Positions 29,899-34,294 of a DNA stretch of 34,813 bases are shown here, piece by piece; within the stretch, counting starts at the first letter, position 1; each line of letters opens with the position of its first letter. Both the position numbers and the translations under genes were made by a program. Below the pieces are notes generated by a model. It searched no databases. It had not been told where the DNA came from and worked only from the letters and a program-made list of their open reading frames with translations. This DNA comes from Bryobacterales bacterium (GTDB lineage Bacteria > Acidobacteriota > Terriglobia > Bryobacterales > Bryobacteraceae), in contig PLOR01000062.1 in NCBI GenBank assembly GCA_003142185.1, positions 1-34,813 of the forward strand, in the 5' to 3' direction.

Positions 29899-32145
29899 AT
29901 GGCCACGATGCCAATGACAAAACTTCTCGAGACTCTTCCCCGCCCGTCCAGGCTTACCATCGCCGCCCTGGCGTTGGCGCTCGCTGTGGCGCCGGCCCTG
30001 GCGCAATCCGCACAACCGCCGCGGAAGCCCGCCGGCCCTTGGATGAACAAAACTCTTTCACCCGATCAACGCGCCGACCTTGTGATCAAAGCGCTGACGC
30101 TCGACGAAAAGATCTCGCTGCTCCATGCCAACGGCTGGGAGATGGGCGGTCCCGAAACGTTGCCCCTCAGAGCGCTCGGCAATGCCGGATTCATCGCGGG
30201 CATTCCCCGTTTCGGCATTCCCGATCTGCAGATGGCGGACGCCACGGTCGGCGTGACGCACTCATCGGTGTTCGGCCGCTATTCCACTCCGCTGCCGTCG
30301 ACCATTGCGGAAGCTTCGAGCTGGGATGTCGATCTGGCCCGCGAATACGGCTCTCTCATTGGCCGCGAGTTGCGCGACCAAGGCTACACCATGACGCTCG
30401 GCGGCGGTGTCGACCTCACCCGCGAGCCGCGCAACGGCCGCAACTTCGAGTATCACGGCGAAGATCCGGTCCTGGCCGGCACGATGACGGGCGCCGAGAT
30501 GAAGGCGCTCCAGGAGCAACACATCATCGGCGACCTCAAACACTACGCCATGAACGATCAGGAAAGCGGACGCTCTTTCGTCAATGTGAAGGTGGGCAAG
30601 CGGGCCATGCGCGAAAGCGATTTGCTCGGCTTCGAGATTGCCCTCAAGGGGTCTGGCGCGGGCGCGGTGATGTGCTCGTACAACCTGGTGAACGGCGATT
30701 ACGCCTGCGAGAACGACTATCTCCTCAACCAGGCTTTGAAGAAAGACTTTGGCTTTCAGGGTTTCGTCATCTCCGACTGGGGCGCCACGCATAGCACAGC
30801 CAAGGCGGCCAACGCCGGTCTGGACCTCGAGATGCCGGAAGCCGATTACTTCGGCGAGGCTCTCAAGAAGGCGGTGGAAAGCGGGGAGGTTCCCGTGTCC
30901 CGCCTCGATAACATGGCGCACCGGATCCTGCGCAGCGAGTTTGCGGTGGGGCTGTTCGACAACCCGCCGGACCGCCGCGTGCCCGATGTGTTTCATGGCC
31001 TCGAAGTGGCCGAGCGCGTCGCGGAACAGACCATCGTTCTCTTGAAGAACGCGAACGGTCAGTTGCCTCTGGCCGCATCGAACATCCACTCGATCGCCAT
31101 CATCGGATCGCACGCGGACGTGGGCGTGCTCTCCGGCGGTGGCTCCGGGCAGGTCGATCCCATCGGCGGCAACGCGATTCCCTGGGCGGTTTCCAACGGC
31201 CAGGTCTGGCACCGCTCGTCACCGTTGAAGGCGATTCGCGCCAAGGCGCCAGGCGCCAAGGTCGCATACGATCCGGGCACGGATACGAACGCGGCCGCGG
31301 CCCTGGCTAAAGCATCCGACGTGGCTATCGTATTCGTCAATCAACCAACCGGCGAAGGCGACGACGTGCGCAGCCTCTCGCTTCCTGACCAGCAGGACGC
31401 TCTCGTCAGCGCCGTCGCCGCGGCCAATCCGCACACCATCGTAGTGATCGAATCCGGCGGCGCAATCACCATGCCGTGGATCGACAAAGTCAGCGCGGTG
31501 CTGGAAGCCTGGTATCCCGGCACTCGCGGCGCCGAAGCCCTCGCCGGCATCCTCTTCGGCGACGTGAACCCATCCGCCAAATTGCCCGTCACCTTCGCGA
31601 AATCGGAAGCGGACCTGCCGCACCCGGTCGAGATGCTGCAGCCTCCGCCGCGCCAGGGCGAAGAGGTCCCGATGTTCCCCGGCGCTCCCTGGAAGGTCAA
31701 TACCAGGCGGTTCGATATCGAATACGACGAAGGACTCCTGGTCGGATACAAGTGGTATGACGCCAAGAACAAACAGCCGCTCTTTCCGTTCGGCTATGGA
31801 CTGTCTTACACCACCTATAGCTACTCAGGCCTGAAGGCGTCTTCCGCGCAGGTCACGTTCGACGTGAAGAACACCGGCAAGCGGGCCGGAGCCGAGATCG
31901 CCGAGGTGTACGCCACTCTTCCCCTGGCCGCGGGTGAACCGTTCCAGCGCCTGGTGGCATTTAAGAAGATTGCGCTCGAGCCCGGCGAATCCAAATCGGT
32001 GACCCTCGATCTCAACCCGCACTATCTGTCCATCTTCAATGAGGACAAGAATGGTTGGGAACTCGTGGCGGGCGAATACACGGTCGAAGTGGGCGGTTCC
32101 TCGCGCGACCTGCCGTTGCGCGGCACGTTCCGCACCGGGGACTAA
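29899..32145 (+). CDS. Exported GH3 beta-glucosidase
   Basis: A 748-residue glycoside hydrolase of family 3, removing sugar residues from the non-reducing ends of beta-glucosides. A signal peptide (about 1-36, cut after ALAQS) is followed by the (beta/alpha)8 domain with DLKHYAMND (substrate-binding Lys-His) and nucleophile D293 in FVISDWGATH. The second sandwich domain starts around 380 (IVLLKNANGQLPL), and a C-terminal fibronectin-III-like domain (about 640-748) ends the chain. TACGTT lies 8 nt before the ATG at 29899, and the SD is poor. It is close to the GH17 operon but divergent from it; together they suggest beta-glucan saccharification outside the cytoplasm. Confidence 0.92.
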   Translation: MATMPMTKLLETLPRPSRLTIAALALALAVAPALAQSAQPPRKPAGPWMNKTLSPDQRADLVIKALTLDEKISLLHANGWEMGGPETLPLRALGNAGFIAGIPRFGIPDLQMADATVGVTHSSVFGRYSTPLPSTIAEASSWDVDLAREYGSLIGRELRDQGYTMTLGGGVDLTREPRNGRNFEYHGEDPVLAGTMTGAEMKALQEQHIIGDLKHYAMNDQESGRSFVNVKVGKRAMRESDLLGFEIALKGSGAGAVMCSYNLVNGDYACENDYLLNQALKKDFGFQGFVISDWGATHSTAKAANAGLDLEMPEADYFGEALKKAVESGEVPVSRLDNMAHRILRSEFAVGLFDNPPDRRVPDVFHGLEVAERVAEQTIVLLKNANGQLPLAASNIHSIAIIGSHADVGVLSGGGSGQVDPIGGNAIPWAVSNGQVWHRSSPLKAIRAKAPGAKVAYDPGTDTNAAAALAKASDVAIVFVNQPTGEGDDVRSLSLPDQQDALVSAVAAANPHTIVVIESGGAITMPWIDKVSAVLEAWYPGTRGAEALAGILFGDVNPSAKLPVTFAKSEADLPHPVEMLQPPPRQGEEVPMFPGAPWKVNTRRFDIEYDEGLLVGYKWYDAKNKQPLFPFGYGLSYTTYSYSGLKASSAQVTFDVKNTGKRAGAEIAEVYATLPLAAGEPFQRLVAFKKIALEPGESKSVTLDLNPHYLSIFNEDKNGWELVAGEYTVEVGGSSRDLPLRGTFRTGD

Positions 32146-32265
32146 CGGAGTTTCCGCGCGGCAGGAACCGAGCGGCAATACTGAATTTGAGACCGAATCG
32201 GTGTACAATTACTAACACCGCGATTACACTTGTTCTTTCCCGATGCGGTCCTTTTTGGGGGTGCG

Positions 32266-32568
32266 ATGGAAAAACCGGCGCAAAACATTCAAGACAGTTT
32301 CTTAAACAACGCGCGCAAGGACAAGATCGTCCTCACGATTTACCTGATGAGTGGCGTGAAGCTTTCCGGCCGGATCAAGAGTTTCGACAAGTACTCTTTG
32401 GTCCTGGAGACCAACAATCAGGAACAGTTGATTTTTAAGCACGCAGTTTCCACAGTGGTGCTACAGAAGCCTCTTCACTCCTTCAGCGGCAACTCGCAAA
32501 CCACCGTTGCGAGCGGGACTCCGGCCGGCGCACCGAGTGTGCCGGTGCCCGCCGAATCGGAGGCATAG
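32266..32568 (+). CDS. hfq: RNA chaperone Hfq
   Basis: A 100-residue Sm-like protein that forms a hexamer and pairs small RNAs with mRNAs. The Sm1 part reads [23 protein letters not shown] in segments around residues 26-48, and Sm2 has IFKHAVSTV, the KHA signature of Hfq. The short C-terminal tail is Ala/Pro/Ser-rich. The frame can open at a TTG at 32230, but the ATG at 32266 has GGGGGTG just upstream. TACAAT at 32203-32208 may be a -10 box. The stop (TAG) is in the same frame as hflX, which follows after 42 nt; hfq-hflX order is also known from Enterobacteria. Confidence 0.95.
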
Positions 32569-32610
32569 CACACGCCGGCGACCAGACCCTCCCGCGAGCG
32601 CGCCATCCTG

Positions 32611-33879
32611 GTGGGGCTGGAGTGGAAATCGCGCGCCGCTTCCGCGCGTTGGGGACCGGCGGGCAGCGAAGAGTCGCTCGACGAACTGGCGGAACTGGCT
32701 TCGAGCGCCGGCGCCGACGTGGTGGAGCGCGTGCTGCAATCGCGTGACGCGCCGCAAGCCGCTACCTTCATCGGGCCCGGCAAGGCCGCCGAATTGGCCG
32801 CCACGGTTGCCGCCGGGGAGGCAGACGTCGTCATTTTCGATCGCGAGCTCACCCCCACCCAGCAGCGCAACCTGGAAAAATCGATTCGCACCCGGGTTAT
32901 CGACCGCACTCAGTTGATCCTCGACATCTTCGCCGCGCGCGCCCGCACGCGCGAAGGCCGGCTGCAGGTCGAACTGGCGCAGCTTAATTACCTGCTGCCC
33001 CGCCTGTCAGGGCGCGGCGTCGAAATGTCCCGGCTGGGTGGCGGCATCGGCACCCGTGGGCCGGGCGAGACGCAACTGGAAACCGACCGCCGGCGCATCG
33101 CCCACCGGATCCAGAAGATCAAACTCGAACTGGAGAGTGTGCGCACCGGCCGCGCCATAAACCGGCGGCGCCGCAGCGCGGTTCCGCTGGCCACGCTGGC
33201 TCTCGCGGGTTACACCAACGCCGGAAAGTCCACCCTCTTCAACCGGCTCACCCAGGCCACTGTCCTCGCCGACGCCCGCCTGTTCGCCACGCTCGACCCC
33301 ACCGTCCGCCCGCTGCTGCTCCCTTCGCACCGGCGCGTTCTGGTCAGCGACACAGTCGGCTTCATCCGCAACCTGCCCACCACCTTGGTGAAAGCGTTTC
33401 GCGCCACGCTCGAAGAGATTCAGGAGGCCGCGCTGGTGCTGCACGTGGTCGACATGGCTTCGCCTTCCGCCACGGAACAGGCCGCGCGCGTTGGCGAGGT
33501 GCTGGATGAAATTGGCGCCGCCCACGTCCCGCGCATCCTGGTGTTGAACAAAATGGACCGTGCCGGAGCGGCAGCCGAGCCGCTCGTGCGCCGCCTTTCG
33601 GCCACCGGTCCCGGTCAAACCGGCGGCGCGGTCGCTATCTCCGCCTTGACGGGAGAGGGCATCGGCCGCCTGTTGGACGCCATTGACGCGGCGCTCCCGG
33701 TAGATCCCACGCTTTCGGTAACCCTCCGCATTCCCGCGGCCGACGGCGCCACCCTCGCGCTGCTCCACCAGTTCGGACGGGTGATCAAGACCCGTTACTC
33801 CGGTAACCACTGCGTCGTGGAGGCCACCATCCCCGAGTCGCTCGAAGGGCGCTTGCGCCGCGCCGGCAAATTGGCCTGA
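32611..33879 (+). CDS. hflX: Ribosome-associated GTPase HflX
   Basis: A 422-residue GTPase that splits stalled 70S ribosomes. The N-terminal HflX domain contains ATFIGPGKAAELA and LNYLLPRLSGRG, followed by GGGIGTRGPGETQLETDRR. The G domain has G1 GYTNAGKST, the DTVGFIRNLP (G3) region and NKMD (G4). The start is a problem. GTG at 32611 is the first usual start codon after the hfq stop, yet the conserved first strand (ERAILVGLEW) begins five codons earlier, where only ATC, CTG and similar codons exist. No SD is seen. The frame is open all the way from the hfq stop, so CTG initiation, coupled restart or read-through are all conceivable. Confidence 0.92.
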   Translation: MGLEWKSRAASARWGPAGSEESLDELAELASSAGADVVERVLQSRDAPQAATFIGPGKAAELAATVAAGEADVVIFDRELTPTQQRNLEKSIRTRVIDRTQLILDIFAARARTREGRLQVELAQLNYLLPRLSGRGVEMSRLGGGIGTRGPGETQLETDRRRIAHRIQKIKLELESVRTGRAINRRRRSAVPLATLALAGYTNAGKSTLFNRLTQATVLADARLFATLDPTVRPLLLPSHRRVLVSDTVGFIRNLPTTLVKAFRATLEEIQEAALVLHVVDMASPSATEQAARVGEVLDEIGAAHVPRILVLNKMDRAGAAAEPLVRRLSATGPGQTGGAVAISALTGEGIGRLLDAIDAALPVDPTLSVTLRIPAADGATLALLHQFGRVIKTRYSGNHCVVEATIPESLEGRLRRAGKLA

Positions 33880-34217
33880 TGGAGGGGGTTACGCACCTTC
33901 CCGCATTTGAGGGCAAGTACGGTAACAGAATCCACAGGCACTGTGGAAAACACTGTGGGAAAGCGGCTCTTCGCAAGCATTAAACTACCATTAAAAAAGC
34001 ACTTACCACGTTTTGCCGCAAGCGGCAGCATATTTCATTAAACGCTTTGGAATAAGTTGCTTGACACCAGACCGCCGCGAACACCAAATGCATTACACAT
34101 TGGTTAACACGAGCGGCTGGTGGTGGAGTCGGATTTCCACATGGCTACTCAGGGGAATACCCTATGCCACCACCCCCACACAGACAAGTAAAATGGTCTG
34201 TTACACTGTACCTTGTT
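33880..34217. other. Non-coding gap with DnaA-box-like repeats before a tRNA
   Basis: AT-richer than its surroundings. It holds an inverted repeat CCACAG-GCA-CTGTGG (33932-33946), a direct repeat of CACTGTGG, a DnaA-box match (TGTGGAAAA, 33942-33950) and a one-mismatch box (33954-33962). An 8-bp inverted repeat (34119-34126 with 34167-34174) may be RNA structure. TACACT at 34202-34207 is a plausible -10 for the tRNA. Confidence 0.45.
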
Positions 34218-34294
34218 GGCGGCGTAGCTCAGCTGGCTAGAGCGACGGTCTCATAATCCGTAGGTCCGCAGTTCGAGTCTGCGCGCCGCCACCA
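34218..34294 (+). tRNA. tRNA-Met (anticodon CAU), elongator type
   Basis: A 77-nt cloverleaf with CCA encoded: acceptor GGCGGCG/CGCCGCC with discriminator A; D-arm GCTC/GAGC; anticodon stem ACGGT/TCCGT with loop CTCATAA; T-arm CGCAG/CTGCG with TTCGAGT. The last anticodon-stem pair is T-T. The acceptor end does not look like initiator tRNA, which usually has a mismatch at 1-72. A tRNA-Ile with modified CAU cannot be excluded from the sequence. Confidence 0.93.

Follow-up and report, generated by a model that had tools for sequence, protein, structure and literature searches.

The hfq-hflX junction

The window, by which we mean the whole stretch of DNA that was analysed (34,813 nucleotides, contig PLOR01000062.1 of a Bryobacterales bacterium), comes from a fragmented draft assembly of 119 contigs. 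It carries hfq and hflX in tandem on the forward strand (Table 1), followed some 340 nt after hflX by a tRNA-Met (CAT) gene. Both protein genes are genuine. Profile searches of the window proteins matched Hfq to TIGR02383 (95.6 bits against a cut-off of 61.7) and to PF17209, and matched HflX to TIGR03156 (456.3 bits against a curated cut-off of 216.75), with its N-terminal, middle and G domains (PF13167, PF16360 and PF01926) all scoring above their cut-offs. HflX splits 70S ribosomes, an activity established in other species.

Table 1. Features of the hfq-hflX region, in window coordinates.
Feature	Position	Strand	Details
hfq	32266..32568	+	ATG start at 32266, TAG stop at 32566-32568, 100 aa
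GGAGG, putative Shine-Dalgarno site for hflX	32559..32563	+	Inside the final hfq codons; from the sequence
ACG, proposed hflX start codon	32572..32574	+	In the hflX frame, 8 nt after GGAGG; from clade conservation
hflX coding sequence with the proposed start	32572..33879	+	435 aa plus stop
ERAILVGLEW, conserved first strand of HflX	32596..32625	+	E at 32596; the start must lie upstream
GTG, first canonical start codon of the hflX frame	32611..32613	+	V of ERAILVG, five codons past E; rejected as start
tRNA-Met (CAT)	34218..34294	+	ARAGORN; Rfam RF00005, 66.6 bits

An earlier reading made from the letters of the window (hereafter the sequence-only reading) had observed that hflX runs in the frame of hfq, open past the TAG stop, that no ATG, GTG or TTG precedes the conserved first strand of HflX, and that the start of this gene must consequently be unusual. 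The window sequence confirmed the shared frame, which is open from position 32569 and devoid of ATG, GTG and TTG until the GTG listed in Table 1, and the lack of a canonical codon recurs in 67 of 156 junctions of the family. The start must indeed be unusual. The same reading had seen no Shine-Dalgarno site, wrongly, as a GGAGG motif precedes an in-frame ACG located 3 nt past the hfq stop. Because this putative binding site for hflX is inside hfq, the start of hflX is tied to hfq, as had been supposed. None of the four start options then put forward is the best as worded: the CTG at 32608 is simply the internal Leu codon of ERAIL, a truncated HflX and an Hfq-HflX fusion are weighed below, and a restart after hfq is compatible with the evidence provided that it is placed at the ACG, a site which had not been considered.

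Start codons of hflX and of control genes in the family

A family search over 237 genomes yielded 160 family loci, at 156 of which the junction was read; L272 and L276 had no hflX match, hfq was missing upstream in L079 and L105, and L055 (a copy of L032), L033 (no family assignment) and repeat loci from the same genomes were left uncounted. The sample is made up mostly of best-scoring relatives, and owing to shared ancestry the genomes do not count independently. Canonical codons were counted in the hflX frame from the upstream stop, taken no further than 60 nt ahead of the hfq end, to the E of ERAIL. By this measure 67 of the 156 junctions had no ATG, GTG or TTG, 72 had GTG or TTG only and 17 had ATG, and the corresponding figures with a 15-nt limit were 71, 73 and 12, these last 12 ATG-started candidates belonging to the more distant family members. 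When the same rule was applied to hfq at the same loci (n = 151, five of the 156 being too short for the hfq start), ATG was found in 149 cases and GTG or TTG in 2, and a canonical start was thus missing from 67/156 hflX genes versus 0/151 hfq genes (Fisher p about 3e-24, kinship ignored). The starts of obg were canonical at all 30 loci read by eye (24 ATG, 5 GTG and 1 TTG), that of rplP was ATG in 30/30 loci and that of infC, also read by eye, was ATG in 18/18 family loci. Since hfq, obg, rplP and infC start canonically by this comparison, the family is not prone to odd starts at large and hflX stands out.

Among the 70 junctions with GGAGG, 55 displayed a near-cognate codon (ACG, ATC, ATT, ATA or CTG) in the hflX frame 4-11 nt past this motif, as against 5 and 2 junctions when the two other frames were considered; a canonical codon occupied that position in the hflX frame at 1/70 junctions and neither kind of codon at 14/70. 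GGAGG was present in 51/67 junctions without a canonical start versus 19/89 of the others (Fisher p 7e-12, kinship ignored), as would be predicted were strong ribosome binding to offset a weak start codon. Counted back from the last base of the hfq stop, the motif lay at -10 in 44 of these 51, and it was absent from the other 16/67 junctions without a canonical start. Outside the GGAGG-spacing rule hflX starts were placed by eye or left without a call (e.g. L016 and L281). An in-frame ATG, GTG or TTG, which may well be the start there, is present at 89/156 junctions and the near-cognate start is therefore not universal in the family. At the place held by ACG in the window, the wider family appears from these junctions to use ATC, ATT, ATA, CTG, TTG or GTG, and ATG seldom.

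Other junction types were encountered during this survey. Five junctions of a single genus (L261, L264, L267, L277 and L279) show ACG followed by ATC or ATA ahead of the conserved stretch, with no GGAGG. At 25 family junctions (L013, L026, L031, L133, L269, L293 and others) the base ahead of the hfq TGA makes a TTGA, CTGA or GTGA in the hflX frame, and in some of these a TTG or CTG start of hflX seems to overlap the stop. In L079 (genome G128) hflX lies at a contig edge and a TAG is reported within the match.

The survey also bears on translational read-through of the hfq TAG, which would produce an Hfq-HflX fusion. The hfq and hflX frames agree in the window and in 79/156 loci, as such a fusion demands, whereas hflX is out of the hfq frame in 77/156 junctions overall and in 21/67 of those without a canonical start. 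The stop codon is not conserved either, being TAG in 68, TGA in 46 and TAA in 42 of the 156 loci and, at the junctions without a canonical start, TAG in 37, TAA in 16 and TGA in 14. Moreover, the codon between the hfq stop and the ACG varies in the clade described below, and in L072 the ACG directly follows the stop. As a conserved mechanism read-through is already refuted by these junctions, and we regard the fusion as highly improbable.

Conservation of the ACG in the HflX clade

A tree of HflX was computed with 51 rows from an alignment beginning at the E of ERAIL, therefore leaving out the start region itself. Start labels were set by eye on this tree (L016 carries no label and L079, whose upstream sequence is missing, was dropped), whose bootstrap was not fully settled (correlation 0.970). 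The window belongs to a clade of 28 rows with a support of 99/95. In 26/28 rows of this clade an ACG is found in frame 7-9 nt after GGAGG; L072 has its ACG at 5 nt and L081 has ATC instead. No ACG was observed 4-11 nt past GGAGG in either other frame (0/28). The surroundings of the ACG are variable, with 12 kinds of codon before it and 13 kinds after it, and in L060, L073, L076 and L080 hflX is out of the hfq frame, yet the ACG is retained in the frame of hflX. In the rest of the clade hflX genes ACG accounts for 338/816 Thr codons; an ordinary internal Thr codon should thus show variation at its third base, and the fixed third base is not a matter of codon bias. A table in which ACG was found in 25/25 rows is no test of invariance, because its rows were preselected for ACG; only the variation of its other columns is informative, and the 28-row tree count replaces it.

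Some clade members offer other candidate codons besides the ACG, namely an in-frame TTG further down in L073 and L080 and, in L076, a CTG in frame that shares bases with the hfq stop. An ACG is also present in L032, outside the clade, and the ACG label requires 3 changes on the tree. An in-frame ACG behind GGAGG was likewise found in L083. When start codons were scored on the tree as a five-state label, 11 changes were counted, and 5 when near-cognate was opposed to canonical.

In principle, the missing ATG could result from a sequencing error or from a recent mutation breaking hflX; a draft assembly in so many contigs leaves room for the former, and the sequence-only reading had envisaged that a relative with a normal ATG would expose such a local accident. 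Relatives argue against it. The same-genus L004 (88% identity) carries GGAGG, a TAA stop in place of TAG, then CAC and ACG, and together with 26 other clade rows it retains the ACG, a single row having ATC. With the same ACG in 27/28 rows from separate assemblies and an hflX gene that is otherwise intact, the probability of an error or a breaking mutation is next to nil. The comparison indicates that the ACG is not a damaged ATG and that selection keeps a near-cognate codon in a clade of related species.

The GTG at codon V of ERAILVG, a standard start codon, is the earliest one that the hflX frame offers, and translation might begin there or further down, the preceding frame being untranslated. 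This is the truncated HflX of the sequence-only reading. It would deprive HflX of its first strand, and in E. coli the annotated protein starts ahead of the matching AVLV stretch. The residues E, R and A ahead of the GTG are invariant, with synonymous changes at their third bases, in 25 aligned relatives, all of them picked for ACG. The GTG itself is not conserved, as it is found in 33/158 loci and in 5/28 clade rows and is replaced by GTC in L004, and of the 67 loci with no canonical codon upstream, 39 have their first one at least 11 codons past E. We consider a start at this GTG or beyond very unlikely, and comparison among relatives instead places the putative start of HflX at the conserved ACG behind GGAGG.

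RNA structure, promoter and initiator tRNA

We found no conserved RNA fold at the hflX start: the alifold energy was -0.5 versus a mean of -0.65 (sd 1.23) for shuffled alignments, 30/100 of which were as low, and single-sequence folds around the start differ among relatives. No Rfam RNA family was matched around the hflX start, the tRNA being the sole match, and no promoter-like site was detected between hfq and hflX (0 in 32100-34250).

The lack of a conserved structure would suit an explanation in which the near-cognate start exists and has no regulatory meaning, a strong Shine-Dalgarno site and coupling to hfq rendering the codon unimportant. The enrichment of GGAGG at junctions without a canonical start (51/67 versus 19/89) could likewise be the cause of a relaxed selection instead of a compensation for the weak codon. 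Relaxed selection should, however, let ATG, GTG, TTG and non-start codons come and go, whereas ACG is kept in 27/28 rows of the clade while its neighbours vary, and only 1/70 GGAGG junctions has a suitably spaced canonical codon in the hflX frame. We judge a start devoid of regulatory meaning to be unlikely, if far from negligible.

The genome of the window (G000) encodes a tRNA-Met (CAT) of the initiator type, with the GGG-anticodon loop-CCC stem. An altered initiator tRNA reading ACG was looked for with one narrow exact pattern in 6 genomes and was not found by it: G000 gave no CGT match, and the only CGT matches, two in G002, were not tRNAs according to ARAGORN.

The ACG could in theory also be converted into AUG by C-to-U editing of the messenger. 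To our knowledge no C-to-U editing of a start codon exists in bacterial mRNA. In plastids ACG-to-AUG editing is on record (PMC9845219). Comparable positions at other family junctions hold ATC, ATT or ATA, from which C-to-U editing cannot give AUG, and we hold this explanation to be extremely improbable.

Likely near-cognate hflX starts outside the family

Beyond the family the likely hflX starts, all placed by eye, were ATC in L024 and L028 from the same order, ATT in L160/L203 (one genome), L201, L218 and L221 from the same class, TTG in L212 and L222, and ATG in L209, L211, L213, L216 and L219. In L354, which belongs to another class of the phylum, hfq is followed by hflX with an AGGAGG motif and a likely start ATC (by eye) at 7 nt, and the displayed hflX frame contains no ATG, GTG or TTG before the conserved start. 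The similarity of this junction suggests that the near-cognate start of hflX may extend more widely than the family. Together with the TTG annotated as the start of E. coli K-12 hflX, these loci suggest that a weak hflX start may be an old and wide trend, of which the ACG of this clade may be the extreme form.

Two further observations were made in these lineages. In L155, from the same order, hflX lies apart from hfq and displays GGAGGT with an in-frame ACG at 6 nt, TTG codons being available as alternatives. In L205, L208 and L217, from another family of the class, the HflX frame is short (345-348 aa) and seemingly without the first strand.

Discussion

We think it very probable that HflX begins at a selected near-cognate ACG backed by a compensating Shine-Dalgarno site, an arrangement that would keep HflX low. 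In the mechanism that we propose, the GGAGG located inside hfq would be bound by 30S subunits or by ribosomes fresh from translating hfq, and the ordinary initiator tRNA would read the ACG at 32572 despite the mismatch at its second base, such that HflX would begin with Met. The weak start likely serves to hold HflX far below Hfq on their common message.

IF3 disfavours near-cognate start codons such as ACG. By analogy with Streptomyces sigR, slackened IF3 proofreading would be predicted to yield more HflX, and we see about even chances that IF3 represses HflX in this manner. More tentatively, HflX might sense how faithful initiation is: with IF3 or free 30S subunits in short supply, or with start-codon proofreading loosened by stress, initiation at ACG, the amount of HflX and ribosome splitting might all rise, Hfq and HflX being made from a single message at a fixed and very unequal ratio. 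We regard this extension as somewhat doubtful. Because infC starts with ATG in the family, the feedback known for infC in E. coli is not evident there. Among the infC loci read by eye (L163-L192), the 18 of this family all have ATG, whereas of 12 loci from the order's other families 10 have ATT, ATA or ATC and two were left without a call, a pattern opposite to that of hflX. IF3 thus does not evidently govern its own synthesis through a near-cognate start in a family whose hflX is subject to such control, a situation that cuts both ways.

We know of few bacterial genes with conserved starts outside ATG, GTG and TTG (infC, pcnB and sigR). In E. coli infC, which encodes IF3, has an AUU start, as does pcnB. 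The hflX case resembles infC in that a translation-factor gene is placed on a near-cognate start and that the yield depends, or in hflX would depend, on IF3 discrimination; the two differ in that the gene is here hflX, the codon is ACG with its second-base mismatch, the binding site lies in the upstream gene, and dependence on IF3 is inferred. E. coli K-12 shares the hfq-hflX order, and its hflX is annotated from a non-AUG start; this is, however, a standard TTG after a 75-nt gap following hfq, whereas in the window the ACG stands 3 nt past the hfq stop. A study of genes preferring non-AUG starts in bacteria reportedly describes conserved cases, a large share of which are genes for translation.

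In Streptomyces sigR starts at GTC behind AGGAGGTG and is repressed by IF3, and replacing this GTC by ATG, GTG or TTG overproduces SigR (PMC5472188). The sigR and hflX cases have in common a non-canonical start, a strong binding site (AGGAGGTG in sigR, GGAGG here), conservation among relatives and a two-gene arrangement in which the ratio of the proteins may matter. They differ in that the odd start of sigR is carried by the first gene and was demonstrated by mutation, while that of hflX is carried by the second gene and was recognized by comparison alone, and the codons are not the same. In the accessible part of a survey of start-codon switches (PMC5622118), out of 61,358 ancestral AUG starts one changed to AUU and two to CUG, and ACG goes unmentioned there.

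A conserved non-canonical start is hence known as a kind. Among the open-licence papers listed by full-text searches, judged by title or by the opening of the abstract, we found no report of a natural ACG start at a bacterial chromosomal gene, nor of hflX as a gene with a non-canonical start. As a rule, genome annotation allows only ATG, GTG and TTG, and hflX genes of this kind are therefore likely annotated too short or wrongly.

From an ACG start little HflX would be produced, in an amount that the start-codon checking machinery might adjust. With its shifts among ACG, ATC, ATT, ATA, CTG, TTG and GTG, the family provides a natural series on how IF3 and the Shine-Dalgarno site govern start choice, and on whether the dose of a ribosome-splitting factor is set in cells by means of weak starts.
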